Virus record (IMG/VR): IMGVR_UViG_3300042465_004901
Coordinates: 1-22,437 of that record
DNA from: a virus
Length of the DNA stretch: 22,437 bases
Strand: one strand, 5' to 3'
A program made the translations under genes and the position numbers. Of the stretch, positions 1 to 16,732 are shown piece after piece (the stretch's first letter is position 1; each line of letters opens with the position of its first letter). The notes beneath the pieces were generated by a model. The model ran no database searches. It was not told the DNA's origin and worked only from the letters and a program-made list of their open reading frames with translations.

Positions 1-2
1 GT

Positions 3-953
3 AGATTTAGGATTACATTTAATGACTCGACTACAGTTAATATTACAGAAAACTCTCGCCTTCTTGTGGACGACTTTGTGTATGATGGGGGAGGGAAGAC
101 GAAGGGCAAACTTGGACTTCGGGTCGCCCTTGGCACCGTCAGATACGCATCGGGCAAAGTCGCGAAAACAAACCCACGAGGCGTAAACATTCGCACACCA
201 ACTGCTACCATTGCAGTTCGTGGCACAGACTTCGTTATGTCGGTTGATGAAGCAGGTCGTTCTACGGTCGTGCTGGTTCCCGAATGCTATAACGAATTAG
301 ACATTACAAAACAAACTGCCGAATGTCCAACAGGCATGATCGAAGTTATCACCGCATCTGGTGTAGTTACGTTAAACCAACCATTCCAAGCAACAGTTGT
401 AGAAAACAACTTTGCTCCTCCTGCTCCACCAGTAATCGTTAATCCTTTGATGAAGGCATTGGACAACAACGTTCAACTTGTTTCGCTGGAAACAGATGAC
501 GGTCAAAGTTTGCTTCAACTTGCTAGAGATAGTTTAAAGAAATTTACCAATCCTTCTAAAGCAGCATCGGATGACAATAAAGATCCAGATGGTGGCACAA
601 ATGATAACGTCGAACAAGTCGCTGCGACAATGCGTCGACCAGCAACACCGCAAGAACTACTAGACGTTTTTGCTGAATTTAATGAAGGCAACATTCCAGC
701 AGAAACTTACTACACTAATGTTTCCCCGATATTCAAAAAGAATGTTCAGGTCGGATGGGTGTATACTCGTTTATCTGAGGACAGACAACAGGCAGTTACT
801 ATCTGGTTAGAGAAGGGTAACGAAGCGCAAGTCGTTTCGGTGCAAAATGGACTAGTTGATGTCTATAACTTTATGGATGATAAGTGGACAACATCGGGAA
901 CTGGTAGACCACAGGGTAACATTACTGTGATACAAGAATCGGGTGCGAGATGA
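3..953 (+). CDS. FecR-domain protein, 5' end outside the window
   Basis: The frame stays open to the window edge (first complete codon at 3), so the N-terminus, probably with a signal peptide, is missing; the GTG at 66 is only an internal codon. The visible start reads as beta-strands ending in a KTNPRGVNIRTPTATIAVRGT stretch, typical of the FecR domain (periplasmic, ligand- or glycan-associated beta domain). After about residue 120 (counted from the GTG) comes a less conserved region with a polar linker rich in D, N and K, then an apparently globular C-terminus. The stop codon overlaps the next start as ATGA (950-953), implying translational coupling. In Alphaproteobacteria, FecR proteins are often encoded beside CHASE2-cyclases, as here. 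Inference: periplasmic partner or sensor of the cyclase two genes downstream. The FecR call is fairly sure; the function is not. Confidence 0.8.
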   Translation, partial: RFRITFNDSTTVNITENSRLLVDDFVYDGGGKTKGKLGLRVALGTVRYASGKVAKTNPRGVNIRTPTATIAVRGTDFVMSVDEAGRSTVVLVPECYNELDITKQTAECPTGMIEVITASGVVTLNQPFQATVVENNFAPPAPPVIVNPLMKALDNNVQLVSLETDDGQSLLQLARDSLKKFTNPSKAASDDNKDPDGGTNDNVEQVAATMRRPATPQELLDVFAEFNEGNIPAETYYTNVSPIFKKNVQVGWVYTRLSEDRQQAVTIWLEKGNEAQVVSVQNGLVDVYNFMDDKWTTSGTGRPQGNITVIQESGAR

Positions 954-2404
954 AAAAACTAATTGCTCTCTTCCTCCTGTTCTTTACGATGCCTGCATTC
1001 GCGCAAGTTACGAACTATGGTTTCGAGAATGGTAACTATACTGGTTGGACGGTGAGTAACGGTTCAACTGCCGCAAGAACTTCGTGGAGTGATAGTGGTT
1101 CTGGCGCACAAGTTACAACTGGTATGACTAACTACTGTCCAGGTGATGGTAAATGCTGGACTGTTACGCCATATGGTTCATATATGATTTCACTTCAAGC
1201 AGGTGGTGGTTCTCCTGGATTTGACGGTGCTATGACTACTTTGGGGTTGACAGGTTCTACAATTACTTCGATTAGAAATACCATCTATGCAAATGGTAAT
1301 ATGAATCCTACGAATGCCACATCTATCAGTAGAACAATATTTCTACAAGCAGGCACGACATACAGTTATGCTTGGCAGTATGTTTCTACCGATTATGTTC
1401 CATACAATGATGGTTCTATGATTACATTGACTGGTGGCCCAGGAACCCCAACGATTAATGGACAAACCCAAAACTTTGCGCTTCTTGGATTTACAAACGA
1501 AGGCACTGGTAACTATTCAGTTGGATCTTACGGTGCTACTGGTTGGCAAGTCGCCGTATTCACAGTTCCTACTGATGGAAACTATCTGTTAGGATTTGCC
1601 TCATTCAATCTAGGTGATACCGCATTGTCGCCAATTCTGTTTATCGATCAGATGCAGGGTACAACTTCACTCAATGGAACAACCTTTGCGCCAGTTCAAC
1701 CTAATGCTGGTTCTTCTGCGCCTCCACCTCCTGCGCCTGAACCTCCTGCTCCAACATTTCCATTAGCAACAATTAGTGCTAATCAATCATTGAAGATTAA
1801 TCAAACAAATGCGATTACACAAAACTCCATCTATATCAATGCAACGGGTTCTAACAATTCAGTTTACATTGAACAGTTCTCTAAGCAGAACCAAATCCGT
1901 GGTGTCAATGGCGCACAAGCAATGACTATCAATGGTAGTGGCAACAGCGTTACTATCAACCAAGGAACGACAACAACTCCAATTGGTAAGAACTTGGCAG
2001 AAGTTTCTGTTACTGGTAACAACAACATCGTATCACTGACACAACAATATGCAGGCAAATACGCCGAGATTGTCACCAATGGTCTTGGCAATCAAATCTC
2101 CGCACAACAAAAAGATGCTGGAGGAAAATCGTTGTTTATCAGTGTTTTAGGAAACTCTAATAATATCAGCACCTTACAACAGGGAACTGCTAACCATTTT
2201 CTAGATATCAGCGCACCGTTTGGTGGAGTTACTGCATCTGTTACTCAATTGGGTTCTTCTATGAAGCAATTTCAACTTTTACTAAATAGTCCTGGAATTG
2301 GTGTAACTGTCACGCAAAATAACTTGACTGCCGCCGACTCTGCGAAAATGGAAATAACATGCACGACTGGACCATGTAATGGATACTCTTATACAAAAAA
2401 CTAA
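950..2404 (+). CDS. Secreted protein with N-terminal beta-rich domain and curlin-like repeats
   Basis: 484 residues. Residues 1-18 form a classic Sec signal peptide (basic MKK, hydrophobic core, AFA cleavage site). Residues about 20-245 resemble a jelly-roll or carbohydrate-binding type domain opening with NYGFENGNYTGW. A proline-rich linker spans about 254-271. From about 272 to 458 there are roughly seven imperfect units of 20-26 residues with the pattern hydrophobic-x-hydrophobic-xxx-G-xx-N-x-hydrophobic-x-hydrophobic-x-Q, for example near 292-309, 324-339, 350-366, 372-388 and 394-412. This resembles the curlin (CsgA/CsgB) repeat, which builds amyloid beta-solenoids, though the first Gln of the canonical repeat is usually replaced. 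Cys63/Cys69 and Cys471/Cys476 could form disulphides. It overlaps the FecR gene by 4 bp and the cyclase gene by 26 bp. Inference: secreted surface fibre or adhesin. No curli secretion gene (csgG) is visible in the window. Confidence 0.72.
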   Translation: MKKLIALFLLFFTMPAFAQVTNYGFENGNYTGWTVSNGSTAARTSWSDSGSGAQVTTGMTNYCPGDGKCWTVTPYGSYMISLQAGGGSPGFDGAMTTLGLTGSTITSIRNTIYANGNMNPTNATSISRTIFLQAGTTYSYAWQYVSTDYVPYNDGSMITLTGGPGTPTINGQTQNFALLGFTNEGTGNYSVGSYGATGWQVAVFTVPTDGNYLLGFASFNLGDTALSPILFIDQMQGTTSLNGTTFAPVQPNAGSSAPPPPAPEPPAPTFPLATISANQSLKINQTNAITQNSIYINATGSNNSVYIEQFSKQNQIRGVNGAQAMTINGSGNSVTINQGTTTTPIGKNLAEVSVTGNNNIVSLTQQYAGKYAEIVTNGLGNQISAQQKDAGGKSLFISVLGNSNNISTLQQGTANHFLDISAPFGGVTASVTQLGSSMKQFQLLLNSPGIGVTVTQNNLTAADSAKMEITCTTGPCNGYSYTKN

Positions 2405-4469
2405 GAAAGCTCTTCTTTCGCCTTGGTTGGCACTGATTACTTTTGCGTTATTGTTAGTAGTAAAATTATCAAACCCTTACTTGGTTGAATCCGCGAGATT
2501 GAAGTTTTATGATTATTTGATGCTCGGTTCACCGACGCAATCTGAACAAATTGTAACCGTCAATATCGGGGAGAAAGCAATTGAGAAATATGGTCAGTGG
2601 CCATTTCCACGTGAGGTCCATGCTCAAATTATTAATGACCTTTATAGTCGAGGGGCTGCTCTTGTTGGCAGCACTATACTTTATTCTGAGTCTGATCGGA
2701 TGGGGACTGATCGAGTTCTTGCGGATACCCTAAGTCAGTATCCAGTAGTCCTGAGTCAGACTGTTTCCGCTGACTGTATTGCTGGATCGATATCTGGCCA
2801 AGGTTCACCTCAGGCAAGTGCGACAATTCGGAGAACAGGCGTTGCCGTAATCGGCGATGGAGAAGCAACTGAATTTCTTCCTCAATATCCATGCGTTCTA
2901 AGTAATATCGCACCTCTTCAAGAAGCCGCAGTCGGTGTTGGGATAACGTCAACCCTACCCGAGCCTGATGGGGTTGTAAGGCGAGTTCCTCTTCTATCTG
3001 GGTCATCAGGCGAATACTATCCCGCATTTGCGATAGAGATGCTGCGTGTAGCTGCAGGAGACTCTTCGTATCAAGCCAAGATAAATCAGACTGGGGTTGA
3101 AGCATTACGAATTCCTTCTTTTGAAACAATTAAAACAGACGAATATGGTAGAGTATTTGTTAATCCCAATTACGTATTTCCATCTGTTGAAGTAGGTGAC
3201 GATATTCCTCGTCTTGATGGGAAAATTGTAATTGTTGGCGTAACTGCTGCTGGTATAGCGAACCCTGTAGCGACTCCTTCAGGTGCCCAACATCCCCATC
3301 AGTTACAGGCCAGTCTACTAGAAACTCTCCTGAATGGTGACTCTGTGTCGATTCCGAATTGGTCAGAAATTGCGGATCTTGCGGCTTTTCTGGGTCTTGC
3401 TCTGGCATTGATTGTTCTTTCTCGTTTTAGATTCTCAATAGTATATATTGTAATTCTACTGGGCGGATATCTATACTTACCGACATATTTATTTCAAACG
3501 CAGAATATTCTATTCGATGTTTCGTTTAATTTGTTTGCCATTGCATTAATCTATATGCATATCTACACTGCTAAGTTTATCAGTGAGTTCCTACAGAAAC
3601 AACAGATTAAGAAACAGTTTGGCACATATCTGAGTCCAGATCTGGTTGCGAGATTGCAAAGACAACCAGACCTCTTGAAACTCGGCGGAGAATCAAGAGA
3701 GCTTTCGATTATGTTCACTGACGTTCGAGGCTTTACTACAATTTCTGAACACTACGGAGAAGATGTCCAAGGTCTAACGTCAATCATGAATCGTTACATG
3801 ACGGTTATGACAAAAGCAATTCTTGAAAATAACGGCACACTGGATAAGTATATCGGTGATGCACAGATGGCATTCTGGAATGCGCCTCTTGATAACAATA
3901 AACATGCGTTGGATGCAGTTCAAACGGCCTTCCAGATGCTAAAAGATTTGGAGACTTTCAATGAAGAAGTTCAAAGAGAAGGCATTCCCGCTTTTGGGAT
4001 GGGTCTTGGTATTAACACTGCCACTGTGGTTGTTGGTAATATGGGCAGCACTCAGCGTTTTGACTATACTTGCTTGGGGGATGGCGTTAATCTGGCTGCT
4101 CGTCTGGAAGGTCAAACCAAGTCTTATGGCGTCAAACTCATCGTCGGACCACAAACGGCCGAACTGGTTAGGGATGTATACCAAGTAGTTGAACTTGATT
4201 TGATTGCAGTTAAAGGTAAGACCCTGCCAGCTAAGATTTTTACAGTTTTGGAAACCTTTGACCATCCAGGCGAGAAACAACATGAGAAGTTCCTTACATT
4301 TTATCGCGAAGGTAATTGGGAAGTTGCCAAAAAATTTGCCAGCGACTTAAAGAAGTGCTGGCAAGGTAATCTATCTGATTATTACGACTCGATGATTAGC
4401 CGTATTGAAGAGTTTCAGGTATCACCTCCGAAAGATTGGGACGGCGTGTATCGGGCGACTTCGAAGTAA
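2379..4469 (+). CDS. CHASE2 sensor - three TM helices - class III adenylate/guanylate cyclase
   Basis: 696 residues. One N-terminal transmembrane helix (about 15-31) leads into an extracytoplasmic CHASE2 domain (about 35-325). Three transmembrane helices follow (about 331-350, 353-372, 378-397) and then a cytoplasmic class III cyclase domain (about 435-625). Catalytic residues look intact: metal aspartates D448 (FTDVRGF) and D494 (YIGDA), purine-specifying K490 and T564 (a Lys/Thr pair typical of class IIIb adenylate cyclases), and transition-state N571 and R575 in NLAAR. The architecture is the standard bacterial CHASE2-cyclase. The last 70 residues form a helical tail. The start overlaps the curlin-like gene by 26 bp and has no clear Shine-Dalgarno, so it is probably coupled. 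Inference: produces cAMP in the infected cell in response to a periplasmic signal, possibly via FecR. A signalling receptor of this kind is not a usual phage gene. Confidence 0.93.
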   Translation: MDTLIQKTKKALLSPWLALITFALLLVVKLSNPYLVESARLKFYDYLMLGSPTQSEQIVTVNIGEKAIEKYGQWPFPREVHAQIINDLYSRGAALVGSTILYSESDRMGTDRVLADTLSQYPVVLSQTVSADCIAGSISGQGSPQASATIRRTGVAVIGDGEATEFLPQYPCVLSNIAPLQEAAVGVGITSTLPEPDGVVRRVPLLSGSSGEYYPAFAIEMLRVAAGDSSYQAKINQTGVEALRIPSFETIKTDEYGRVFVNPNYVFPSVEVGDDIPRLDGKIVIVGVTAAGIANPVATPSGAQHPHQLQASLLETLLNGDSVSIPNWSEIADLAAFLGLALALIVLSRFRFSIVYIVILLGGYLYLPTYLFQTQNILFDVSFNLFAIALIYMHIYTAKFISEFLQKQQIKKQFGTYLSPDLVARLQRQPDLLKLGGESRELSIMFTDVRGFTTISEHYGEDVQGLTSIMNRYMTVMTKAILENNGTLDKYIGDAQMAFWNAPLDNNKHALDAVQTAFQMLKDLETFNEEVQREGIPAFGMGLGINTATVVVGNMGSTQRFDYTCLGDGVNLAARLEGQTKSYGVKLIVGPQTAELVRDVYQVVELDLIAVKGKTLPAKIFTVLETFDHPGEKQHEKFLTFYREGNWEVAKKFASDLKKCWQGNLSDYYDSMISRIEEFQVSPPKDWDGVYRATSK

Positions 4470-4533
4470 CTTCTTGTTCGAATAGTTCCTTCTCCATCTG
4501 ACGGAAGTGTTGCTCTAGTTCTTCGGGGTTCAT
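4396..4533 (-). CDS. Small acidic protein, 45 residues
   Basis: Begins MNPEELEQHFRQMEKELFEQ and ends at a TAA at 4396-4398. Its ATG shares one base with the stop of the preceding minus-strand gene (TAATG, 4531-4535), a typical coupling arrangement. It is strongly acidic in its first half, with a likely amphipathic helix. It overlaps the 3' end of the cyclase gene, on the opposite strand, by 74 bp, so the two messages could pair. I recognise no family. Confidence is moderate: the support is the coupled start, plausible composition and the upstream promoter, not homology. Confidence 0.5.
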   Translation of the reverse strand: MNPEELEQHFRQMEKELFEQEVTSKSPDTRRPNLSEVIPETLQYG

Positions 4534-4724
4534 TATGCAACCTTCCTTTTATATGCCACACGGCCTTCAAGATACTCTTCAAAAGACGAATATGTAGGAA
4601 TACCATTCGCTTCGAGTTCAAAATTAATTTCGAGAAACTCGGCATGTTCATACTGCCAGCCGTTCCATGCAACACCCAACTCTTTAAGTAGGATTTCTTC
4701 ATTTCTAGATATTTCAAGAATCAT
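4533..4724 (-). CDS. Small hypothetical protein, 63 residues
   Basis: I chose the ATG at 4724 (MILEISRNEEILLKEL) because GAGGTG lies a few bases upstream; an in-frame ATG at 4736 would add four residues but has no ribosome site. The protein is acidic with hydrophobic and aromatic residues spread evenly (ELGVAWNGWQYEHAEF), and the C-terminus is basic. A near-consensus promoter on the same strand (4750-4778) gives a start point near 4743, just upstream. It looks like one of the small early accessory proteins common in T4-like phages. No family recognised. Confidence 0.65.
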   Translation of the reverse strand: MILEISRNEEILLKELGVAWNGWQYEHAEFLEINFELEANGIPTYSSFEEYLEGRVAYKRKVA

Positions 4725-4749
4725 CACACACCTCATTGTTTACATTATA

Positions 4750-4778
4750 GTTATAGACGATTCGCTACCAAAAGTCAA
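4750..4778 (-). promoter_or_regulatory. Sigma70-type promoter, minus strand
   Basis: Read on the minus strand: TTGACT (4778-4773), a 17-nt spacer, TATAAC (4755-4750). The predicted start is near 4743, about 19 nt before the 63-residue gene. It stands back to back with the plus-strand promoter at 4792, making a compact divergent control region. Confidence 0.75.
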
Positions 4779-4791
4779 GCGGTTTTTTCTA

Positions 4792-4820
4792 TTGACATTA
4801 AAACAAATATGTTGTATTGT
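4792..4820 (+). promoter_or_regulatory. Sigma70-type promoter, plus strand
   Basis: TTGACA (4792-4797), a 17-nt spacer and TATTGT (4815-4820), in an AT-rich intergenic stretch. The predicted start is near 4827, just before AGGAG (4831-4835) and the ATG at 4842. It probably drives the long block of plus-strand genes that follows. Confidence 0.8.
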
Positions 4821-4841
4821 GAAAGTCATAAGGAGATTGTT

Positions 4842-5243
4842 ATGACTATGCATTTGTTGGGTCCAGCTTACACTACGACAAATACTAAAAAGCGCAAAAC
4901 TACAAACAAAGGCGTGACTAGTAGATATGCGCAAGATTGGGTAGATTACAATAAGCAGATGAAACGCCTTGGTTCTTCGACTAAGACCTTTGACGAGTAT
5001 GTGCAATATCGGCAAGGTAGATTTAAACCTAACTTGCGTGGCACACCTCTACCTAAATATGAAGTCAGTGACCATCGACAAAAATATCCTTCTGGAGATG
5101 GTATTGGTGTAAACTATACTCGTAAAGAAAAAGTCTATACGGGCACACTTATTAAGGGTATCAGCGTTCTACATAAGAGTAATGCTGTACCTGTTATCAA
5201 TGACGAACAAATTTTGGAGATTGCGAAAATGCGCCGTGGTTAA
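4842..5243 (+). CDS. Conserved phage protein of unknown function
   Basis: 133 residues from the ATG at 4842, chosen because AGGAG lies 6 nt upstream and the protein then starts MTMHLLGP; a longer frame from 4809 would begin upstream of the predicted transcription start. The N-terminal HLLGPAYTTTNTKKRKT and the C-terminal YTGTLIKGISVLHKSNAVPV followed by AKMRRG match, from memory, a small protein widespread in tailed phages without assigned role. It is basic, with no membrane segment. First gene of the plus-strand block after a strong promoter; its stop lies 13 bp before the chosen start of the methyltransferase gene. Confidence 0.8.
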   Translation: MTMHLLGPAYTTTNTKKRKTTNKGVTSRYAQDWVDYNKQMKRLGSSTKTFDEYVQYRQGRFKPNLRGTPLPKYEVSDHRQKYPSGDGIGVNYTRKEKVYTGTLIKGISVLHKSNAVPVINDEQILEIAKMRRG

Positions 5244-5256
5244 TTTTGATGTTGTA

Positions 5257-5820
5257 ATGAATTGGATGGAATACATCCGTAATAATCCAGAGAATGCATA
5301 CAGATTCTCTGAGAACTTTTGGCCAAGTCAGATAGAGAGTAAGAAATGGTTACTGGAACATGTAACTCCTCTTGATAGATCTATCGTAATTTTTGGTGGA
5401 TGGTATGGAGTTCTTGCGCAGTTTATTGCCCACAAGTTTCCTGATGCACGAATACTAACTACTGACATGGACTCTGAATGTAAGAAGGTGTTTGCTGCTA
5501 TCGATGAGTATTATCACGATATCACATTTCGTCAGCACAACATGCAAAATGGTATGCCACTCAATCATCCACACCCTGATCTAGTTATCAACACCAGTTC
5601 CGAGCATGTGACGCAAGAAGTTTATGATGCTTGGTGGAACTCTATTCCTAGTGGTACTAAATATATCGTCCAAGGAAATAATCTAGTTAATCCTGAGCAT
5701 GTTCGTCTTGCTGATGATCTAGCACATTTTTTGACAATCAACAATATCAAAGAACCACAGTATGCAGGAATGTTGAAATGTGGACATTTTTATAGATACA
5801 TGGCAGTGGGTTATAAATGA
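5257..5820 (+). CDS. Class I SAM-dependent methyltransferase-like protein
   Basis: 187 residues from the ATG at 5257 (MNWMEYIRNN). Alternative starts are GTG at 5236 and ATG at 5266; none has a convincing ribosome site, so the start is uncertain. The glycine motif IFGGWYGVLA (about 45-54) is motif I of the Rossmann fold, followed by the acidic end of strand two (TTDMD, about 68-72) and PDLVINTSSEH (about 107-116). The WW pair and the TKYIVQGNN strand also fit class I methyltransferases. Target unknown: small molecule, peptide or sugar. It directly precedes the radical SAM genes and may belong to the same pathway. Confidence 0.7.
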   Translation: MNWMEYIRNNPENAYRFSENFWPSQIESKKWLLEHVTPLDRSIVIFGGWYGVLAQFIAHKFPDARILTTDMDSECKKVFAAIDEYYHDITFRQHNMQNGMPLNHPHPDLVINTSSEHVTQEVYDAWWNSIPSGTKYIVQGNNLVNPEHVRLADDLAHFLTINNIKEPQYAGMLKCGHFYRYMAVGYK

Positions 5821-5860
5821 ATAGAGACTTTGAACAATTTATCAACTAATCGGAACCACC

Positions 5861-7150
5861 ATGTTCGAAAATAATAAAAGTATGTGCGCAATACCTTTTG
5901 TAAGCACAATGATTAACACAGACACTACTGTGCGGTATTGTTGTATGGTCAAAGGTCGTGCAAATGTTGTTTCAAAAGATACAGGTGAGGCATATACATG
6001 TCGAGATAATTTTATTGAAGATGCTTGGAACTCAGAAAGTATTCGAGATATTCGAAGAAAAATGATTAATGCTGAATCTATTCCTGGATGTGCAGTTTGT
6101 TATCAGCAAGAAGACGATAATAAGATGAGTAATCGCCAGCATAGTTTGCGGGAATGGTCACAACGTCTTGGCACAGAAGAACTGAAGCAGATTATTGAAT
6201 CTGCAGGAGAAGCAGATGGGTTTGTTGAAACTGCTCCCGTATATCTCGACCTGCGTTTAGGTAATTTGTGTAATTTAAAGTGTAGAATGTGTAACCCCTG
6301 GAATAGCAGTCAGATCGTAAAAGAGCATACTGATTTAGTTACTCGCCGACCCGATTATGCTGATGTGTGGCAAAAGACCTTTGGTAAATTCCCAGAAAAA
6401 GTTATGGAGGACCAACCTTGGTTTGATCACAATATTCTTTGGGATCAAGTTATTTCGCTGATTCCAACATTGAAAAAAGTTTACATGACAGGTGGCGAAC
6501 CCACTCTAATTAAAAATAACTATAAGTTTATGGAAGAGTGCATTCGTCAGGGTCGCAGAGATATAACTCTATTCTTTAATACTAATTGCACAAATATTAA
6601 TCCAAAGTTCTTTGAACTAATCTCACAATTTGATGCCGTTAATATTAATGCCAGCATTGATGGTATTGGGGCAGTGACCGAGTATATTAGAGCGCCAAGT
6701 AAATGGTCGCAAGTTTCTAAGAATATTGAAAAATTTGCACAAATGTCAAATGTTCATCTTGGTATCACGCCAACAATTCAAGTATACAATGCATTTGATG
6801 TTGTAAATATCCTTACTTGGGTAGACGATTTACGTGAGAAATATTCTAAGGATATTTTTATTGATTTTCTAATCAACCATCACCCGGTGCATCTAAGCGC
6901 ATTAATCTTACCCGACGATTTACGCAAAGAAGCTGTGGAACTCATTGAAGATTATTGTGAAGTAAATACCATTCAGAATGAAATGACTAAAAATTCTCTT
7001 CAAGGCATCGTAGGGTTTTTTAAGAATTCTCGTCTTAAAGATTGGGAAATTATGGTAAATAGATTTCGTATATATACTAACGCACTTGATGAAGAGCGCA
7101 AAGAAAGTATATCAGTTTTAGATACACGTTTGGCAAAATTATATGATTGA
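5861..7150 (+). CDS. Radical SAM protein with N-terminal cysteine (twitch/SPASM-like) domain, paralog 1
   Basis: 429 residues. The radical SAM signature CxxxCxxC is C137-NLK-C141-RM-C144 (CNLKCRMC), followed by MTGGEP, the SAM-binding GGE motif. Unlike most SPASM/twitch enzymes, the extra cysteines are N-terminal (C9, C27, C28, C47, C77, C80), with a CAVCYQQE motif likely to bind an auxiliary iron-sulphur cluster. Marine phages and bacteria have a family annotated as twitch-domain radical SAM proteins with this order. It is a paralog of the next gene (same N-terminal pattern, LDLRxGNxCNLxCxMC core). The last 8 bp overlap the next gene (ATGATTGA, 7143-7150). Substrate unknown; maturases of this class act on peptides, proteins or sugars. 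Confidence 0.88.
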   Translation: MFENNKSMCAIPFVSTMINTDTTVRYCCMVKGRANVVSKDTGEAYTCRDNFIEDAWNSESIRDIRRKMINAESIPGCAVCYQQEDDNKMSNRQHSLREWSQRLGTEELKQIIESAGEADGFVETAPVYLDLRLGNLCNLKCRMCNPWNSSQIVKEHTDLVTRRPDYADVWQKTFGKFPEKVMEDQPWFDHNILWDQVISLIPTLKKVYMTGGEPTLIKNNYKFMEECIRQGRRDITLFFNTNCTNINPKFFELISQFDAVNINASIDGIGAVTEYIRAPSKWSQVSKNIEKFAQMSNVHLGITPTIQVYNAFDVVNILTWVDDLREKYSKDIFIDFLINHHPVHLSALILPDDLRKEAVELIEDYCEVNTIQNEMTKNSLQGIVGFFKNSRLKDWEIMVNRFRIYTNALDEERKESISVLDTRLAKLYD

Positions 7151-8405
7151 TAATAAAAATTTCTGTATCCAGCCATGGATACATCTTGCAAGTTGGAATG
7201 ACGGCAAGGTTCCACTTTGCTGTGTTGCTTCACCTGAGGCAAATTTAAACTTCAATGACTCAACTCCCCAAGAAATTTGGAACAGTGAGCAGTTTAAACG
7301 GGCAAGACTGAAGTTTATCAACGGAGAACAACCTCCTCAATGCAATGCTTGTTGGAAAGAAGAAGCAAGTGGAATCAAGAGTCACCGTGTAATCGAGAAT
7401 GATATGTGGAAGCGCAAGTTGGGCGCAGAAAAAATTAATCGCATAATCTCTCTTACAAATCCAGATGGTAGCGTAGACTTTAACCCAATTACTTTGGATT
7501 TGCGCATTGGTAATACATGCAATCTTCAATGTGTTATGTGTCGTCCTCGTGATAGCAGTAAGTGGTTGAATGATAGTAAGAAACTTGCACAAACCCTGAC
7601 TAGTCCTGGTGCAAAAAGTGATTGGGATTTTAAATCAAAAAGTATTGCTAATACCGATTGTTTTGACTGGTTTGAGAAACTAGAAACCCAAGACGCACTA
7701 GATGAGTTTATGGGTGATATTCGCCACATTATTTTTGGTGGGGGAGAACCTCTACTAATCAAGGGGCATGAACGTTTCATCACAAAACTTGTAGAAAGCG
7801 GTCATAGTAAGAATATTGAACTGCGCTATCATACAAACGGAACTCAACTAAGCGAAAAGTTTATTGATCTCTGGAGTCAATTCAAATTAGTTGAATTGAT
7901 GGTAAGTCTTGATGATTGGGGATCTAGAAACGAGTTTGTTCGTTGGCCAGCATCATGGGAAGTAATCTCAAAGAATCTTGATCGGTTAGACGAAACGGCA
8001 GATAATATCGTTGTTAATATTCTTGCTACTGTTCACGCAATGAACATCTACAATCTACCTGATTTTGCACAAGCAATTATAGATCGTAAATGGAAAAAAA
8101 TCTGCAAACGCAACGAGGGACTATTTTCCGTAGGTACTACTCATTGGCCCCAATATCTTAGCACAACAGTTTTACCGCGGAACGTTAAAGAGATTATTAA
8201 CAAGAGGTGGGAAGAATATCCTGATCTGGTTAATCATCCGCGATGGATTAATAGAATTAAATATCAGTTTGAATATATGACCAGTAGAGATGATTCCGAC
8301 AAGTTCCCCGATTTGATGAATTACATCGATACACTAGAACTGATGCGTCCGATTAAATTTTCAGAAGTATATGGTGATTACTACAAATTATTGAAAGGTA
8401 TTTAA
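7143..8405 (+). CDS. Radical SAM protein with N-terminal cysteine (twitch/SPASM-like) domain, paralog 2
   Basis: 420 residues, same order as its neighbour. The N-terminal FCIQPWIHLASW and VPLCCVAS segments plus CNACWKEE (C8, C26, C27, C67, C70) suggest an auxiliary cluster; the radical SAM triad is C126-C130-C133 (CNLQCVMC), with FGGGEPL downstream. It starts inside the end of paralog 1 (8-bp overlap), so the two are co-translated and may act on successive sites or form a heterodimer. The C-terminal third, rich in W, Y and R, differs from paralog 1 and may carry substrate specificity. Confidence 0.88.
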   Translation: MIDNKNFCIQPWIHLASWNDGKVPLCCVASPEANLNFNDSTPQEIWNSEQFKRARLKFINGEQPPQCNACWKEEASGIKSHRVIENDMWKRKLGAEKINRIISLTNPDGSVDFNPITLDLRIGNTCNLQCVMCRPRDSSKWLNDSKKLAQTLTSPGAKSDWDFKSKSIANTDCFDWFEKLETQDALDEFMGDIRHIIFGGGEPLLIKGHERFITKLVESGHSKNIELRYHTNGTQLSEKFIDLWSQFKLVELMVSLDDWGSRNEFVRWPASWEVISKNLDRLDETADNIVVNILATVHAMNIYNLPDFAQAIIDRKWKKICKRNEGLFSVGTTHWPQYLSTTVLPRNVKEIINKRWEEYPDLVNHPRWINRIKYQFEYMTSRDDSDKFPDLMNYIDTLELMRPIKFSEVYGDYYKLLKGI

Positions 8406-8406
8406 T

Positions 8407-9354
8407 ATGGCAACACTCTTGAGACTGGTTTTCCTAGATGATTGTGGTAAAGAACACGAATTGCATTTTGCATTGTATCCCACGGATCTTGTTAATCGAT
8501 GGGTCGAGATTACAAAGAAAAACCAACAAACTCCTGATTCTTACATTAATACTCGATTCACTAATCTCTCCTATAGTCAGATTTCTAAAGTTAGAACTAG
8601 ACTGACTGATTGTCTCAACAGAATTAATTCTGTTTACGATGAACCGCTACCATTGTATGAAGAAATCGAAGAACTTACTACACCTGAACTCAATTATTTG
8701 CATGAAGAGTTTGAGCGGTATGGCGATAGATTTGAGGATTTGATGCAAACGGCCAATTGGTGGTCGCAAGAGTTGCACGAAGACTTTTTGGAACTGAACG
8801 AACTTATCCACCTTCATGAAGATTTGCTATACATCAAGAAGGGCGACTTTCCGAATATGGCACTTCTTTATGATTATTATCCACAAGGATTGCATCTTCC
8901 TATCCTCGAGCGCGATAAACTATGGTTAACACCAACGCTACAGTGGGGAGAAGTTTATCTTGGTTATAACACCCTTGGTAAAGATTGGATGAAGGTTGTC
9001 GCCGACAAAGACTTAGAAGTAATCGAACGTGAACAAGTAAGACCCCAGGAAAGATTCGCAGCAGAAACTTGGATTAATTTTGGTCCAGATAGTGATGGTT
9101 GGGAAATAAGACAACTGGAAAAGATGTATTCTGAGTTACCAGAGAATCTACAAAAGAAAGTTCCCATTGACGATCTGAATAAACTGACTTATGGTAGATT
9201 TAAACTTGGAAAAATTATAATCGATGAATATTTTATATCTCGCTACGGCGGAACAATTGCGGATTACAGTGTAAAAGCAGGAAGCGTAAAGCGACATTGG
9301 GATGAACATGTGTTTAGCACTTTCGTAGAACTAAAAGAAATTGAATTTTTATGA
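8407..9354 (+). CDS. Unknown acidic protein within the radical SAM cluster
   Basis: 315 residues, starting one base after the stop of paralog 2 and overlapping the next radical SAM gene (ATGA at 9351-9354). I recognise no domain. It is acidic, mostly predicted helical in the middle (EELTTPELNYLHEEFERYGD and LHEDFLELNELIHLHEDLL), with a more beta-like second half (KLWLTPTLQWGEVYLGYN). It has only two cysteines, so it is not a cluster-binding protein, and no signal peptide or membrane segment. Its position between radical SAM genes suggests a partner, carrier or substrate of those enzymes; this is inference from position only. Confidence 0.72.
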   Translation: MATLLRLVFLDDCGKEHELHFALYPTDLVNRWVEITKKNQQTPDSYINTRFTNLSYSQISKVRTRLTDCLNRINSVYDEPLPLYEEIEELTTPELNYLHEEFERYGDRFEDLMQTANWWSQELHEDFLELNELIHLHEDLLYIKKGDFPNMALLYDYYPQGLHLPILERDKLWLTPTLQWGEVYLGYNTLGKDWMKVVADKDLEVIEREQVRPQERFAAETWINFGPDSDGWEIRQLEKMYSELPENLQKKVPIDDLNKLTYGRFKLGKIIIDEYFISRYGGTIADYSVKAGSVKRHWDEHVFSTFVELKEIEFL

Positions 9355-10307
9355 TGGATAAGAAATTAATAAAAATACAGCAAACAGAAAATGTAATGTT
9401 GCTTACGTGGATTATTAATAATATTTGTAATAATCGTTGCGCGTATTGTCCACCAATATTGAATTCTGGTAAGAATCACCACTATGAATGGGAGCGTGCA
9501 AAAGAATTTATCTATCGACTCATTGACCACTACCCAAAGATACATTGCACTATCAGCGGCGGTGAACCGACACTGAGTCCGTTCTTTAAAGAATTGGTAG
9601 ACATTTTCTATACGAGTAAGAATAATACTATTGGTTTAACTACAAATGGTGTAAAACCTATAAAATATTGGGAAAAAATTGCCCAAAAATTTAGTTATAT
9701 ATGCTTTAGTTATCATCCAAGTTATGAAGACCCAGAATTTTTAGAGAAGGTAAAGGTTGCATCAAAGCAAACTTTAGTAACTGTTAGAATCATGATGGAT
9801 TCTAGATATTGGGACAAAGCATATGAAATGTATCAACGTTGTTGTGAAATTCCTGAGATTGCAGTAGAAGCAGTAAGAGTTCTTCCTGAACAAGCGAGAG
9901 CAACAAACGTTGGAGAAACCTATACGCCCGAGCAGGAAAGTATTCTAATGTCAATTCCAAGAAAAGAAATGAATTATGATCCGTCGATTGTAAATCCAAA
10001 CTTCAAATACTCGTCCATGATGTCTGACTTTTATTTCGACGATGGTTCGGTAGAATATAATGGACAGTCAAATAAATATATTACTGAAGGTGATAATAAG
10101 TTTGCTGGATGGTATTGTGCAGCAGGATTGGAAAGTTTGTTTGTCTCTTGGTCTGGACATGTCCAGGTTGCGAATTGTCTTCAGGGCGGATATATGTTTC
10201 ATATCAACGACCATGCGGATTACCAACTTCCAACCAAGGGAGTTATTTGTAACCAGAAACTTTGCTTTTGTGGAACAGATTTTATGATAAGCAAAGAAAA
10301 GATATAA
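9351..10307 (+). CDS. Radical SAM protein with C-terminal SPASM/twitch-like cysteines
   Basis: 318 residues. The radical SAM motif is near the N-terminus: C26-NNR-C30-AY-C33, then TISGGEPTLSP and LTTNGVKP, standard for MoaA/SPASM relatives. The C-terminal part has cysteines in WYCAAG, VANC, VICNQKLCFCG, the arrangement of a SPASM or twitch auxiliary-cluster domain. It differs from the two upstream paralogs in that its extra cysteines are C-terminal. Two adjacent ATG codons (9351, 9354) could start it. Substrate unknown. Confidence 0.88.
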   Translation: MMDKKLIKIQQTENVMLLTWIINNICNNRCAYCPPILNSGKNHHYEWERAKEFIYRLIDHYPKIHCTISGGEPTLSPFFKELVDIFYTSKNNTIGLTTNGVKPIKYWEKIAQKFSYICFSYHPSYEDPEFLEKVKVASKQTLVTVRIMMDSRYWDKAYEMYQRCCEIPEIAVEAVRVLPEQARATNVGETYTPEQESILMSIPRKEMNYDPSIVNPNFKYSSMMSDFYFDDGSVEYNGQSNKYITEGDNKFAGWYCAAGLESLFVSWSGHVQVANCLQGGYMFHINDHADYQLPTKGVICNQKLCFCGTDFMISKEKI

Positions 10308-10309
10308 TT

Positions 10310-10987
10310 GTGTCTAACACAGAACTGATCAACTTTCTTACAGAAAACAAAAAGAAGCAATGGAATTATCCCAATACGTTTCCGAATAATCTGTGGGAAA
10401 CAGATTGGCCCTGGTCGCAAGTAAACGCAACAGGAACTCATAACTACAATGAAATTATAGCAGAGTTATCTGCTGTTAGCGAACTTTTTGTAGAACACAG
10501 AGCAAAAGATAAAATTGAAAGTTATGGTCACGAGGGTTGGTACTCGCTAACGGTGCACGGTATCGATTACGACAAAACTGAAAATTATGATCGGTATGGA
10601 TTTAGCAGCGAAGAAGAAGCAAACTATAAATGGACTTCTGTCTGTGAGAAATTACCATTGACAAAAAACCTAATTGATTCGCTACCATTTAAAGATTACG
10701 GTAGAATTCGTATCATGAGAATGAGTCCTCAGGGATATATTATGCCACATACAGATGGTATCGGAAGAATCTTCGGACCTTTTAATTTTGCGATTAATAA
10801 CCCAGAAGGTTGTGAGTTTGTGATAGAAGGACATGGCGTTGTTCCGTTTAAGCAAGGTTCTGGTTTTTTACTTGACATTGGTAAGAAACACGCTGTTATC
10901 AACGATAGCGACGAATATCGTTACCATATTATTATTCATGGTAAACTTACTACAAATCCCGCTGAACTTTTACGAGAAATACTATGA
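10310..10987 (+). CDS. Aspartyl/asparaginyl beta-hydroxylase-like Fe(II)/2-oxoglutarate oxygenase
   Basis: 225 residues from the GTG at 10310, two bases after the previous stop; an ATG at 10262 would extend it by 16 residues but overlap the previous gene. The double-stranded beta-helix motif HxD...H is visible as H147-T-D149 (MPHTDG) and H194 (GKKHAVINDS), followed by R204, as in the Asp/Asn hydroxylase family. The sequence LLDIGKKHAVINDSDEYRYH is typical of the family's C-terminal core. It needs Fe(II), 2-oxoglutarate and O2 and hydroxylates a side chain or a small molecule. It ends in ATGA overlapping the next gene. Likely acts in the same pathway as the radical SAM proteins. Confidence 0.8.
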   Translation: MSNTELINFLTENKKKQWNYPNTFPNNLWETDWPWSQVNATGTHNYNEIIAELSAVSELFVEHRAKDKIESYGHEGWYSLTVHGIDYDKTENYDRYGFSSEEEANYKWTSVCEKLPLTKNLIDSLPFKDYGRIRIMRMSPQGYIMPHTDGIGRIFGPFNFAINNPEGCEFVIEGHGVVPFKQGSGFLLDIGKKHAVINDSDEYRYHIIIHGKLTTNPAELLREIL

Positions 10988-12339
10988 ATATCGTGCAAGG
11001 TAATTTTGTCAACGATGTAGATTTAGCAATTTGCATTTTTCCGACTGAGACGATTAAAAATAAAGAACTTGCAAAAAGAATGGTTGAGTATACTAAGTTT
11101 TATGCGCTCAGGTTTAACCAACTGGCGCGGCGCGAAAATACATTATCAATTTTAGAATGTGATAGTATCGATGATGGTATGTCAAAGTATCACGGAACTT
11201 ACAAGAATATCTTGTTTATGGCAGCGGGTGTTCGCATCTATGACATGTCTATCCTCTTTGAGATCAGAGAAGAAATACTTTCCAGTCCCAACTACATGGC
11301 GTTCGGGCACATCTTAGAATGGAAAGAAGATTGGTACGAGCTACATCATCAGTTTGTGTTAGTTAATAGCCGCAACTGGATTAAATGTGGTAAACCAAGT
11401 TATGGTGCATGGGAACAGAAAATTGAAGAACTGCCGGTTGTAGAAAGAAGCGAAGAAAATTTCCATGACGATTATACACCGTTGTGGATTCGCTATACTG
11501 GTGAATATAAACCGCAGAAGCATACCAAGCAGGGATGGAATTACTTTAATGCTTCTAGTCGTGGTAATTGTGAAATCGGTAATTGGAATGACACGATACG
11601 ATCCAAGCGGACATATTATTACCCAGAGAATAACGGCAATGAACTATTACAATCACTAAAAGAATTACGAAATTGTGGAGTTACCAATCCCAATCAAATT
11701 CGTTTTATTAATACTCTTCGAAACTTTTCTGATCAAATTTGGGTTCTTAATAGTGAAGAAATAAAAATTGATTTTAATAATAAGCAATATTCTTTCGCTG
11801 CGTTTCCCGCCGCTGGGTTCAAGTTTTTAGAAATTTTACATCGGGGTAAACTGAAGCAGGATGGTAAAATTGTGATATATGACTTCAATCCAAAAAGTAT
11901 TCAGTGGATTGAAACTCTAATGCACAGTAATAAAAATCCATTGCAATTAATGCAGGAGTATCCACATAAAAAAACATTTAAATGTCTCGGTGGACAGGTT
12001 TTTACGGAATCAGGAGAATTCACTAAAGATTTTCTGGAGAGTTATCAGCGAACTGTTTCGTATTTCGGCGGAGAAGAAAACTTTAATAAATTGATTGAAG
12101 AATTTAGAAAAAGTAATGTTGTTTTTGTTCAATGTGATTTATTCAATTCTCCCGAAACTCTTTGTTCACATCTATCTGAAAATGGATTAATTAACATCTC
12201 TAATATATTTTGCACTGATTTCAGCAATGGATACTATGGTCTAAAAGAAACACAAGCTAGGTATAAAAGTTTTATTAAATTGTTACCAGAAAAAACTCGG
12301 GTCATAGGTTTTGGAGCAAACTGCGAGACATTGAATTGA
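10984..12339 (+). CDS. Large two-part protein, glycosyltransferase-like plus Rossmann-like (unassigned)
   Basis: 451 residues, overlapping the oxygenase gene by 4 bp. The N-terminal half (about 1-190) has a hydrophobic strand before FMAAGVRIYD, then FGHILEWKEDWYELHHQF and SYGAWE, a layout reminiscent of GT-A type transferases without a clear DxD. The C-terminal half (about 265-451) has FAAFPAAGFKFLEIL followed by KIVIYDFNPKSIQWI, which looks like the first two strands of a Rossmann, methyltransferase-like fold. No family can be named with certainty. The context suggests it transfers or methylates a group on the cluster's substrate. Confidence 0.68.
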   Translation: MNIVQGNFVNDVDLAICIFPTETIKNKELAKRMVEYTKFYALRFNQLARRENTLSILECDSIDDGMSKYHGTYKNILFMAAGVRIYDMSILFEIREEILSSPNYMAFGHILEWKEDWYELHHQFVLVNSRNWIKCGKPSYGAWEQKIEELPVVERSEENFHDDYTPLWIRYTGEYKPQKHTKQGWNYFNASSRGNCEIGNWNDTIRSKRTYYYPENNGNELLQSLKELRNCGVTNPNQIRFINTLRNFSDQIWVLNSEEIKIDFNNKQYSFAAFPAAGFKFLEILHRGKLKQDGKIVIYDFNPKSIQWIETLMHSNKNPLQLMQEYPHKKTFKCLGGQVFTESGEFTKDFLESYQRTVSYFGGEENFNKLIEEFRKSNVVFVQCDLFNSPETLCSHLSENGLINISNIFCTDFSNGYYGLKETQARYKSFIKLLPEKTRVIGFGANCETLN

Positions 12340-12383
12340 GATAATTTCTATTGCTACACACTTATACTTTACGGAGTTACTTT

Positions 12384-12488
12384 ATGTTAAAATGGCTGAT
12401 AAAAAAAATTAATTCATATTTTGCTAGAAGAAAGCATCTAAAACGAATTAAAGAATTACGTAAAATGGATCCGTTCATCTATGATTGA
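12384..12488 (+). CDS. 34-residue basic peptide ending in DPFIYD
   Basis: Starts at an ATG preceded by GGAG (12373-12376) at good spacing. The peptide has an amphipathic start (MLKWLIKKINSYFARR), a strongly basic middle (KHLKRIKELRK) and the ending MDPFIYD. The last 8 bp (ATGATTGA) overlap the start of the carbamoyltransferase gene, exactly as the two radical SAM paralogs overlap. Its own ribosome site and the coupling argue that it is translated. It could be a small regulator, a membrane-associated peptide, a coupling leader, or a peptide substrate of the cluster's enzymes; I cannot decide. Confidence 0.65.
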   Translation: MLKWLIKKINSYFARRKHLKRIKELRKMDPFIYD

Positions 12489-13914
12489 ATGGGGTATATC
12501 CGCAGCAGCACATGATGCATCTTTGACAGTAGTTGATGGAAGTGAAATTTTATTTGCTTCTCATGCTGAACGGTATTCGGGTATCAAAAATGACAAAGAC
12601 TTGAATGTAGATTTAATTCGCGCGGCATTGATGTTTGGTAAACCAGAAAAAATTCACTGGTATGAAAAACCTAAACTTAGAGCTATGAGACGATTGCTTG
12701 CGGGTCAGGGCATGGTTAGATTTAGCGTTAGACAATATCTTGCTGCTTTCGGACTAAAAGATATTCCGGTAGAATTTGCATTTCATCATGAATCACATGC
12801 CGCGGCTGGCTTCTATACTTCGCCGTATGATAATGCAACCGCTCTTGTTATTGATGCTATCGGTGAATTCGATACTGCGTCAATCTGGAAATGCTCTGGT
12901 AGTAAACTCAAAAAGAAATGGTCTATGGACTATCCTAAGTCTTTGGGTCTGTTCTATTCTGCTATGACAGATAGAATTGGGTTAAAGCCCAATGAAGACG
13001 AATATATCTTAATGGGAATGGTAGCATATGGTGATCCTGGAAAGTATTATGATGAAGTAAAAAATCTTTGGAAATCTGAGAACCTGCATCGTGGATGTCG
13101 CTGGTGGAGGCCAGATGACGGAGACCTGGACATTTATAGTGTCGCTGCGGCAACTCAAAAAGTCTATGAAGAAGAATTCGAAAAACTTCTGATACGAGCA
13201 AAAATGAAAGATGCCGCACAAGATAATCTTGTTCTTATGGGTGGCTGTGCGTTAAACTGTTCTGCAAATCATCTTGCTAGAAAATACTTCAAGAACGTTT
13301 GGATTATGCCAAATCCGGGTGATGCAGGAAGTTCCTTGGGTGCGATTGCAGCTAACAACAGACAAAAATTGAAATGGAAGGGTCCATATCTCGGCGCAGA
13401 TATGGGAGGAGAATATCCGGTAGAAAAACTCTTGACAGAATTGCATAAGACTGGTATAGTAGGTGTTGCAAATGGTCAAGCAGAATTCGGCCCTAGAGCA
13501 TTAGGTAATCGCAGCCTTCTAGCTGATCCAAGAGGTCATGACATTAAGGATAAAGTAAATGCTATTAAAAAGCGTCAAAAATTTCGCCCATTTGCTCCAG
13601 TCATTCTGGCAGGACGTGCGCGAGACTACTTTGAAATGTCATGGGAAGACTCCCCTTATATGCAATATACTTCAAGATGTAAATATCCTGATCAGTTTCC
13701 TGCTATTGTTCATGCTGATGGGACATCTCGCGTCCAAACTGTGACAAAAGAGCAACACCCGGGACTATATGCCCTTCTTAGTAGGTGGTATGAAGAAACT
13801 GGTTGTCCAATGCTATTGAATACAAGTCTCAATATCAAGGGTATGCCGATGGTGAATAACTTTAAAGATGCTGATGATTTTGAAGCGAAATATGGCGTGA
13901 AAGTCTTTTCATAA
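12481..13914 (+). CDS. Carbamoyltransferase, NodU/CmcH family
   Basis: 477 residues, somewhat shorter than typical bacterial members (about 550-600). The N-terminal Kae1/TobZ-like part has HHESHAAAG (from residue 102) for metal and nucleotide binding, the GISAAAHDASL opening and MGGCALNCSANH near 253-264. The C-terminal YrdC-like part has GQAEFGPRALGNRS (332-345), the family hallmark. It should form carbamoyl-adenylate from carbamoyl phosphate and ATP and move the carbamoyl group to a hydroxyl. Known family acceptors include sugars, antibiotics and 5-hydroxymethylcytosine in viral DNA; which applies here is unknown. The upstream oxygenase could supply a hydroxyl. No good ribosome site, so probably coupled to the 34-residue gene it overlaps. 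Confidence 0.93.
   Translation: MIEWGISAAAHDASLTVVDGSEILFASHAERYSGIKNDKDLNVDLIRAALMFGKPEKIHWYEKPKLRAMRRLLAGQGMVRFSVRQYLAAFGLKDIPVEFAFHHESHAAAGFYTSPYDNATALVIDAIGEFDTASIWKCSGSKLKKKWSMDYPKSLGLFYSAMTDRIGLKPNEDEYILMGMVAYGDPGKYYDEVKNLWKSENLHRGCRWWRPDDGDLDIYSVAAATQKVYEEEFEKLLIRAKMKDAAQDNLVLMGGCALNCSANHLARKYFKNVWIMPNPGDAGSSLGAIAANNRQKLKWKGPYLGADMGGEYPVEKLLTELHKTGIVGVANGQAEFGPRALGNRSLLADPRGHDIKDKVNAIKKRQKFRPFAPVILAGRARDYFEMSWEDSPYMQYTSRCKYPDQFPAIVHADGTSRVQTVTKEQHPGLYALLSRWYEETGCPMLLNTSLNIKGMPMVNNFKDADDFEAKYGVKVFS
13432..13460 (+). promoter_or_regulatory. Sigma70-type promoter inside the carbamoyltransferase gene
   Basis: TTGACA (13432-13437), 17-nt spacer, TATAGT (13455-13460), with TGG just before the -10 box (extended -10). 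It would transcribe the small genes starting at 13926. Being inside a conserved coding region it could be chance, but it matches the seven other promoters in the window. Confidence 0.5.
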
Positions 13915-15675: not shown

Positions 15676-16344
15676 ATGTTCAAAACAATCTATGATTATA
15701 CTGATTTCGCCCAAGATGAAACAAGAGAAGATGGTAGCAGAGTTTACGTCAATGCCGCAGGTGTTGGATATCCCTCTGCTACCACCGTTCTAGGGGTCTT
15801 AAACAAAGACTCAATCAACAAGTGGCGTGAGCGTGTCGGGGAAGAAGAAGCCAATCGTATTTCTAAGCAGGCTTCTACTCGTGGTACTAAAATCCACACA
15901 CTTACCGAAGCATATCTAAAGAATGAAGAAGTTGATTTTGATGGTGTAAAAGCGTCCTTGCTCGACAGGGAAATGTTCACTAAGTTTAAGTCAATTCTTG
16001 AGCCTATCGATAACATTCATTGCCAAGAGCTGGCATTATACAGCGACTTCTTACGTATGGCTGGTCGTGTTGACTGTATCGGTGAATACAACGGTACTCG
16101 GGCTGTAATCGACTTTAAGACTTCCAATCGGCCCAAGAAGAAGGAATATATCAGTTCCTACTTTATGCAGACCGCTGCATATGCAATCATGTATGAAGAA
16201 CGGACTGGTATTCCTGTTCCCTATCTCATCATCTTGATTGCCGTAGACGGTGACGAGCCTCAGGTGTTCATAGAAAAGCGTGACAACTGGGCTAAAAAAC
16301 TTATTGAAACTCGCGATTTGTTTGAAAAAGGTATTGACAAATAA
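15676..16344 (+). CDS. PD-(D/E)XK exonuclease (MGME1/RecB-like)
   Basis: 222 residues. The nuclease core is visible as H74 (RGTKIHTLTE), E118, D133 (GRVDCIG), D146-F-K148 (VIDFKTS) and Q165 (QTAAYA), the order seen in RecB/Cas4/MGME1-type nucleases. Close relatives are regular members of the replication and recombination set of marine T4-like phages. There is no Shine-Dalgarno; the start codon sits at the predicted transcription start of the upstream promoter. The 3' end overlaps the putative tmRNA promoter. Confidence 0.9.
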   Translation: MFKTIYDYTDFAQDETREDGSRVYVNAAGVGYPSATTVLGVLNKDSINKWRERVGEEEANRISKQASTRGTKIHTLTEAYLKNEEVDFDGVKASLLDREMFTKFKSILEPIDNIHCQELALYSDFLRMAGRVDCIGEYNGTRAVIDFKTSNRPKKKEYISSYFMQTAAYAIMYEERTGIPVPYLIILIAVDGDEPQVFIEKRDNWAKKLIETRDLFEKGIDK

Positions 16345-16362
16345 GGACTTATGTCTTATATA
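16334..16362 (+). promoter_or_regulatory. Putative tmRNA promoter
   Basis: TTGACA (16334-16339), 17-nt spacer, TATATA (16357-16362), overlapping the end of the exonuclease gene. Predicted start near 16369, just before the tmRNA acceptor piece. Confidence 0.6.
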
Positions 16363-16368
16363 TAGATT

Positions 16369-16680: not shown

Positions 16681-16732
16681 GTATATACGATGAAATGAGT
16701 GATGTAAGAACCTATGAATGCTAAATAGTTGT

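Follow-up and report, generated by a model that had tools for sequence, protein, structure and literature searches.

A phage curli operon with a modular second curlin and a FecR/CHASE2-cyclase pair: a possible late, lectin-tipped adhesin

The IMG/VR record IMGVR_UViG_3300042465_004901 (22437 b, analysed in its entirety and hereafter called the window) is derived from a T4-like phage and opens with three genes encoding a FecR-domain protein, a curlin-like protein and a CHASE2 receptor cyclase. In this study, comparison with relatives indicated that these genes are probably the 3' part of a phage curli (type VIII secretion) operon, whose csgF and csgG would lie off the contig. The curlin-like protein, the second curlin of this operon, is by alignment modular, with a conserved curlin tail joined to one of four unrelated N-terminal heads or to none. 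The best reading of the operon, to which we assign a probability of about one half, is a late, lectin-tipped curli adhesin combined with a reporter acting through cyclic AMP (cAMP). What the sequences themselves show is the operon and its domains, an active site with its catalytic positions kept, purifying selection, a head that changes and a promoter motif. The infected cell would open a CsgG/CsgF pore through which curlin subunits are exported, and the second curlin would insert its repeat tail in the fibre and display an exchangeable, probably glycan-binding head. The resulting lectin-tipped amyloid adhesin would, to the benefit of the phage, bind the infected cell, or the debris left by its lysis, to surfaces or to cells. 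FecR would be a secreted, anchor-like protein whose curlin-resembling last strand docks on the fibre or the pore, and the adjoining CHASE2 cyclase would sense this docking in the periplasm and raise host cAMP. The purpose of phage curli operons is debated, with guesses ranging from lysis to nutrient import; the exchangeable heads, together with a late-promoter motif, speak for binding to surfaces, with glycans as testable ligands.

Operon order and phage origin

A preliminary description of the window, made from the sequence alone, had named a trio of FecR, secreted curlin-like and CHASE2-cyclase genes with overlaps of 4 bp and 26 bp, and the map of open reading frames (ORFs) together with the profile matches confirmed it. 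The three ORFs are uninterrupted and overlap at 950-953 and 2379-2404; identical overlap lengths recur in relatives, for example in L003 (6572-6575 and 8001-8026; L-numbers are locus labels from the scans). Because the window is the whole record, its FecR is short of about the first 65 residues. A cyclase scan of IMG/VR found at least 588 stretches encoding a cyclase relative, and a second scan was centred on CsgG of phage HTVC008M; the best 80 loci, partly near-copies, were kept in each. After 14 cyclase loci with less than 1.3 kb of upstream DNA had been excluded from the gene-order count, the complete operon csgF-csgG-curlin-FecR-(second curlin)-cyclase was present in 53 of the remaining 66, with the second curlin in 28 and in the same order without it in 25, and the operon of the other 13 begins within 90 b of the locus end and is cut. 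The 80 CsgG-centred loci showed an unchanged order over the stretch available in each, only L295 being rearranged, with its cyclase upstream instead. FecR was visible in 69 of these loci and the cyclase in 43; the loci missing either gene, L295 apart, run to within 800 b of their ends. The annotated phages Melnitz and HTVC008M have a matching order. Thus the three-gene order proposed earlier was found in other viral metagenome records, the cassette being seen in the 80 kept cyclase loci as far as each reaches. The suggestion that csg genes might be found upstream was borne out for csgF and csgG in the relatives, whereas a CsgE gene is unnamed in the two annotated reference operons.

The missing name of CsgE bears on a nutrient-uptake role, in which an ungated CsgG pore admits molecules that a streamlined host cannot import. 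Although this role has been proposed in PMC7029224 and PMC9599517, as far as their available text goes, curlins and heads would be superfluous to it and the late motif described below does not suit it; we consider it very improbable.

The cassette itself was already known, since its gene order was printed in 2022; with this operon, viruses that infect aquatic bacteria would appear to have the host secrete fibres of the curli type. According to the available text of PMC9599517, csgF, csgG, csgA/B, FecR, a second csgA/B and an adenylate cyclase occur in pelagiphages of two families and are of alphaproteobacterial origin. This module has the same gene set and order as the relatives of the window operon, so that the novelty which the preliminary description saw in the combination does not stand. 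Phage CsgF/CsgG were also described in PMC7029224 (2020) and PMC9004378 (Melnitz), in the parts of these papers that were accessible. The window represents a lineage separate from the reference phages, its cyclase being 41% identical to those of Melnitz and HTVC008M and its ssb 59% and 58%, respectively. The modular second curlin, the secreted-type FecR and the late-promoter motif before the operon are new here in so far as modular heads, an anchor-like FecR and late-promoter enrichment were not found in the accessible text of the phage-curli literature searched.

An assembly chimera of host and phage DNA is close to impossible as the source of the cassette, and the claim that it is phage-borne held. 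Locus L002 is 100% identical to window 1-12466 and supplies the FecR start absent from the window, and the junction at 4469 is crossed by a gap-free alignment in five further loci, which come from four records (one with both L003 and L099, the others with L054, L100 and L101). Many of the remaining loci align up to a gap at 4469 and continue nearby, in order. The window also encodes a gp32-type ssb at 19030-19947 (PF08804, E=6e-48); of the 20 relatives or reference phages asked, 14, among them both reference phages, carry a relative of this ssb on the same record. Identical or contiguous records across the junction and the ssb on the same records rule out the chimera, and no supporting point for it was found among these comparisons. 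The ratio of nonsynonymous to synonymous substitution (dN/dS) was 0.05-0.17 in 15 comparisons (three cassette genes with five relatives); the genes are therefore under purifying selection and not decaying.

The curli operon was also observed on very large viral contigs, L048 (258859 b), L076 (360683 b) and L081 (328068 b), which are possibly jumbo phages. In addition, L011 and L091 are one contig of 171566 b with the operon split over its two ends, which suggests a complete circular genome of about 171 kb.

The second curlin and its heads

The preliminary description had given the middle protein about seven curlin-like repeats. This count is fair, since repeat motifs recur at about residues 278, 302, 331, 358, 380, 403, 426 and 449, and both a family profile and a structure model support the curlin assignment; the single sequence falls under the Pfam cut-off for Curlin_rpt (13.6 bits against 20.7, E=0.066). 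The family profile matches the solved curlin 8c50 over positions 274-462 (E=6.1e-8), and the L066 protein, 51% identical to that of the window, passes Curlin_rpt (E=6.7e-8). Structure prediction of the repeat region, as had been proposed, gave a tail modelled as a regular beta-solenoid over residues ~291-484, with a predicted local distance difference test score (pLDDT) of 73-93 per block of ten residues. Neither of the outcomes that the preliminary description had named as telling against it, a chimeric contig or repeats unrelated to curlin in a cassette absent from other phages, occurred, given the records across the junction, the relatives and the 8c50 match. Curlin R15.5 (8C50; PMC10192328, available text) has a curlin repeat solenoid like that of the window tail; however, 8c50 covers the tail only, and the window protein has an extra large N-terminal head (~residues 20-265), which the preliminary description did not mention. 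The beta-helix proteins that formed the best VIA-align rows for the tail, such as SufB (Z 17.2), were rejected as relatives, this being fold likeness with no functional meaning; 8c50 was outside the 50 rows shown. A Foldseek search of the middle protein against the PDB gave no match at E<=0.001, and a search against BFVD gave nine matches, including 'Curlin associated' and 'PA14 domain-containing' proteins of uncultured phages. As these UniProt names show, such domains had already been caught by automatic annotation.

An alignment of 15 second curlins showed a shared tail and unlike N-termini. The head types are a sandwich resembling carbohydrate-binding modules (CBMs; the type of the window), a PA14 domain with a sugar-binding DD motif, an alpha/beta domain and a short domain. 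Among 56 second-curlin clusters at 90% identity, 13 have the sandwich, 11 the alpha/beta domain, six PA14, three the short domain and 23 no head; the headless count includes 12 'other' proteins so scored after viewing length and start. The head-class profiles were built from some of the classified proteins, and so the classes describe rather than test, whereas the Pfam matches to PA14 are independent. PA14 exceeded the Pfam cut-off in L035 (E=6.1e-14), L081 (4.6e-7), HTVC008M (2.7e-6) and L304 (3.6e-7), and was matched at E<=0.001 by three of the 25 second curlins of the CsgG scan; Pfam found no PA14 in the window's own second curlin. The DDG residues are kept in all six PA14 heads. In PA14 lectins and adhesins an adjacent-Asp motif holds Ca2+ and sugar, according to the accessible part of PMC6650083; the literature search found no paper pairing phage curli with PA14. 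The model of the window head (residues ~22-253) aligned with sandwich domains at Z 5-6, a sialidase and Cry proteins ranking first, followed by several CBMs (alginate-binding, CBM16, CBM61) and MAM domains, which is suggestive only of a CBM-like beta-sandwich. For the alpha/beta head, ThuA was tried and rejected; its best match reached E=0.024 only, and this head is therefore assigned to no family.

Mapped onto a 55-row tree of FecR, the five head states need at least 17 changes, an approximate number that includes losses, the least possible being 4. PA14 takes six changes for six rows, and the alpha/beta head at least eight on starred branches. Near sisters are unlike: L255 has PA14 and L258 the alpha/beta head, and L290 has the alpha/beta head and L291 none. 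We read this pattern as domain exchange and loss. Such head diversity and change would also suit varied surface sugars if the fibre coated the infected cell and hid or occupied the glycans needed by competing phages. This superinfection exclusion has been proposed in PMC9599517, as far as its text was accessible, but the late-promoter motif suggests expression at a stage late for exclusion, and we regard it as distinctly unlikely.

The adhesin reading has a counterpart of shared logic in RTX adhesins with PA14 (PMC6650083, available text), which combine an anchor, a stalk and a Ca2+-dependent sugar-binding head. In contrast to those adhesins, each one giant polypeptide leaving by type I secretion, the phage parts seem to be split over FecR, the curlin fibre and the headed curlin.

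FecR, the cyclase and their bacterial counterparts

FecR anti-sigma regulators carry a cytoplasmic N-terminal anti-sigma segment before a membrane span, with a sigma gene alongside. The full-length phage FecR relatives, read by eye, have a signal-peptide-like start followed at once by the FecR domain; no anti-sigma segment was seen in them, and no sigma gene is named in the cassette of the two annotated reference operons. A role as anti-sigma regulator of iron-citrate uptake was rejected on these grounds, and without an anti-sigma part the name 'iron-dependent regulator' probably misleads. Judged by sequence, the phage FecR looks like a secreted protein and not an anti-sigma regulator. Its C-terminal half is poorly conserved, and its structure model is poor (mean pLDDT 55.6). 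A curlin-like end strand, loosely G-x-I-x-V-x-Q, was found as a lead in 33 of 33 dereplicated phage FecR proteins against nine of 379 control ORFs; none of 35 bacterial FecR neighbours, some of them cut by contig ends, has it. The family profile of phage FecR also matches PDB chain 5ix9_A ('Antifreeze protein') weakly (E=0.028), which we take to be the anchor region of the Marinomonas ice-binding adhesin. The literature search gave no paper on 5IX9, and the accessible text of PMC8277102 yielded nothing on either retention modules or antifreeze proteins.

The window cyclase matches CHASE2 (PF05226, E=1.1e-39), a domain that is periplasmic, and Guanylate_cyc (PF00211, E=1.7e-17); the closest solved relatives of its catalytic domain are 6fht and CyaB 3r5g. 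In class III cyclases, two Asp bind metal, a Lys together with Thr or Asp selects adenine, and an Asn and an Arg stabilise the transition state. All six positions (D448, D494, K490, T564, N571, R575) are present in the window cyclase and kept in 13 of the 15 rows aligned; HTVC008M has Ser at 564, and Melnitz has Asp at 564 and Ser at 571. The Lys and Thr residues presumably favour ATP over GTP, as the family rule has it. In the cyclases of L066, L080 and L081, CHASE2 is 43-44% and the catalytic half 77-84% identical to the window (L066: 44% and 84%), which on these identities looks like an exchange of the sensor.

The nearest bacterial cyclases (best 80) are 32-37% identical and, by title, mostly alphaproteobacterial. 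A FecR match was counted on either strand and at any place in the retrieved locus, at distances of up to about 8 kb, and 35 of the 80 loci, many of which are short, had one, in agreement with the earlier statement that FecR and CHASE2-cyclase genes are neighbours on chromosomes. Furthermore, 27 of these 35 FecR ORFs have at least 902 aa. Four of the 35 were scanned with Pfam: two combine cadherin/Big with RTX or VWA domains, and in the other two FecR was the only domain; one of the adhesin-domain giants matches 5ix9 at E=1.4e-5. The same neighbourhood is known from Sinorhizobium meliloti, where the CHASE2 receptor cyclase CyaD1 (SMc02176) lies, like the phage gene, beside an extracytoplasmic FecR-domain protein, SMc02177 (PMC5498481, available text). 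The CyaD1 system differs in that it works with the regulator Clr in root infection, and curli genes are unmentioned in the accessible part of that paper. The Burkholderia BiofilmReg operon (PMC5192318, available text) is likewise similar to the phage pair, with an exported FecR-domain protein beside a CHASE2 sensor and a link to biofilm, but there the sensor is a histidine kinase and the FecR protein has LysM.

At E<=1e-3 the phage profiles of csgG, csgF and curlin matched none of the 80 bacterial cyclase loci, and no CsgG match was found in seven genomes with a near cyclase, six of which have a FecR neighbour. Conversely, 34 of 385 genomes from the class of the Bradyrhizobium locus L127 matched CsgG, five of them strongly (E<=1e-79); all five strong loci have csgF and curlin, and none has FecR or the cyclase within about 9 kb. 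A sixth, weaker locus (L235) has csgG alone. In these bacterial samples the FecR/cyclase pair and the curli operon are found apart, so that the phage operon unites what are two separate cassettes in bacteria. This separation could mean that FecR and the cyclase form a signalling pair that travels with the operon as a passenger and whose role has nothing to do with the fibre; that view is improbable, however, in the light of the fixed gene order in phages, the curlin-like end of FecR and the adhesin domains in two of the four scanned bacterial partners. If alphaproteobacterial FecR/CHASE2-cyclase pairs serve surface adhesins, as they may, this would give a handle on the signal of CHASE2 receptors.

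Late-promoter motif and features of the window

Of the 67 CsgG-centred loci, 45 carry the motif NATAAATA, which we take to be the T4-type late-promoter consensus, no more than 25 b ahead of csgF, and 29 of the 550 other ORFs have it at that distance; the rows are related. This is the fair comparison, another count (61 of 76 against 33 of 613) having used unequal windows. In an earlier count the motif lay within 200 b in 38 of 96 dereplicated upstream regions of all phage loci, with 0.063 expected per region. The motif before the operon in many relatives indicates that the operon is probably made together with the virion genes. Among closer relatives of the window, nine of 18 chosen loci (L003, L005, L007, L009, L010, L013, L019, L023 and L028) have the motif beginning 12-16 b before the start codon of a 95-aa membrane protein, 560-638 b ahead of csgF; in the other nine a frame of 3-8 codons follows (L012, L014, L026), csgF itself follows (L061) or there is no row (five). 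The 95-aa protein (L003 2796-3083) belongs to phrog_18771 (E=9.7e-30, unknown function) and has a weak holin match, phrog_4898 (E=0.0023). Early and late promoters are listed for Melnitz, none of them tied to the curli genes in the accessible text of PMC9004378.

These observations bear on a role in lysis timing, in which the CsgG/CsgF gated outer-membrane pore would be a holin-like release device, FecR and the cyclase would tune its opening, and the curlins would do no more than plug or gate it. A pore role has been proposed in PMC9004378, whose accessible text also reports that Melnitz-infected cells do not clump, and the late motif and the 95-aa protein first after it in the nine chosen loci agree with such a role. 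It leaves unexplained, however, the exchangeable heads on a secreted subunit and the purifying selection on curlin tails, and an outer-membrane pore does not lyse cells by itself. We therefore hold it to be unlikely.

The adhesin reading is the best fit, beside lysis timing and superinfection exclusion, and the following points weigh against it. The absence of clumping in Melnitz-infected cells does not favour an adhesin. Among the 40 dereplicated cyclase-scan loci, L061 alone shows NATAAATA in the 200 b preceding csgF, and the operon start lies outside the window. Much of the model of the window head is under pLDDT 50, and its Z of 5-6 may reflect merely a common arrangement. Shuffled head states needed a mean of 28.4 changes and none of 200 shuffles was as low as the tree, so that the heads are partly inherited; the tree is also quick and has some long branches, hence the approximate number. 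With 23 of the 56 clusters headless and 25 of the 53 complete operons lacking a second curlin, the heads are not essential. The FecR end pattern was written after the ends had been seen, and its rows are related, which makes it a lead only; the curlins themselves end in it in only 16 of 43, and the 5ix9 match of phage FecR is weak. None of 16 phage records, mostly fragments, encodes a domain binding cyclic nucleotide monophosphates, and the cAMP receptor would therefore have to be that of the host. Finally, SMc02177 was dispensable for signal perception in S. meliloti (PMC5498481, available text). A further extension of the adhesin reading is put forward tentatively, as doubtful but possible: in aquatic phages the late lectin-tipped curli may be a phage-encoded, extracellular host-capture organ on the dying cell, with heads swapped like tail-fibre tips and with a FecR anchor and CHASE2 cyclase from bacterial adhesin systems reporting export as cAMP.

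Table 1. Cassette features and their positions in the window.
Feature	Position	Strand	Evidence
FecR-domain protein, 5' end cut by contig start, 316 aa of ~381	3..953	+	PF04773 E=5.5e-11; phrog_37870 E=1.4e-51; 92% identical to full-length L003
FecR domain	9..278	+	Pfam residues 3-92
C-terminal curlin-like strand of FecR, GNITVIQESGAR	915..950	+	end motif
Second curlin: signal-peptide-like start, head, proline-rich linker, curlin solenoid, 484 aa	950..2404	+	alignment, model, family profile
N-terminal head, candidate CBM-like beta-sandwich, residues 20-265	1007..1744	+	VIA-align Z 5-6 (weak)
Curlin repeat solenoid (predicted), residues 274-484	1769..2401	+	8c50 E=6.1e-8; pLDDT 73-93 from ~residue 291
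CHASE2 receptor class III adenylate cyclase, 696 aa	2379..4469	+	PF05226, PF00211; phrog_35576 E=1e-230 over residues 9-696
CHASE2 sensor domain	2445..3410	+	Pfam residues 23-344
Cyclase catalytic domain with D448, D494, K490, T564, N571, R575	3696..4223	+	Pfam residues 440-615

Beyond the cassette, profile searches found PhoH and a cell wall hydrolase in the window. A permuted, phage-encoded transfer-messenger RNA of the alphaproteobacterial type lies at 16330-16714 (RF04321, 103 bits; RF01849, 59 bits) with the tag ANDNVAFAGYALAA; it shares an identical stretch of 34 bases with Ruegeria phage RpAliso and hints at an alphaproteobacterial host or ancestry. A cluster at 5861-13914 encodes three radical SAM proteins, an Asp/Arg beta-hydroxylase and a carbamoyltransferase, and may serve in making or modifying a peptide or a surface sugar; one of the radical SAM proteins passes the SPASM cut-off and one falls just under it, and L108 carries window stretch 5826-9718 at 89%. 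The ssb gene is adjoined on the minus strand (19979-22264) by the gene of a 761-aa protein with partial matches to phage peptidase and endolysin families. Melnitz and HTVC008M also have a long minus-strand gene, there next to the curli module, and in HTVC008M it encodes the tape measure.

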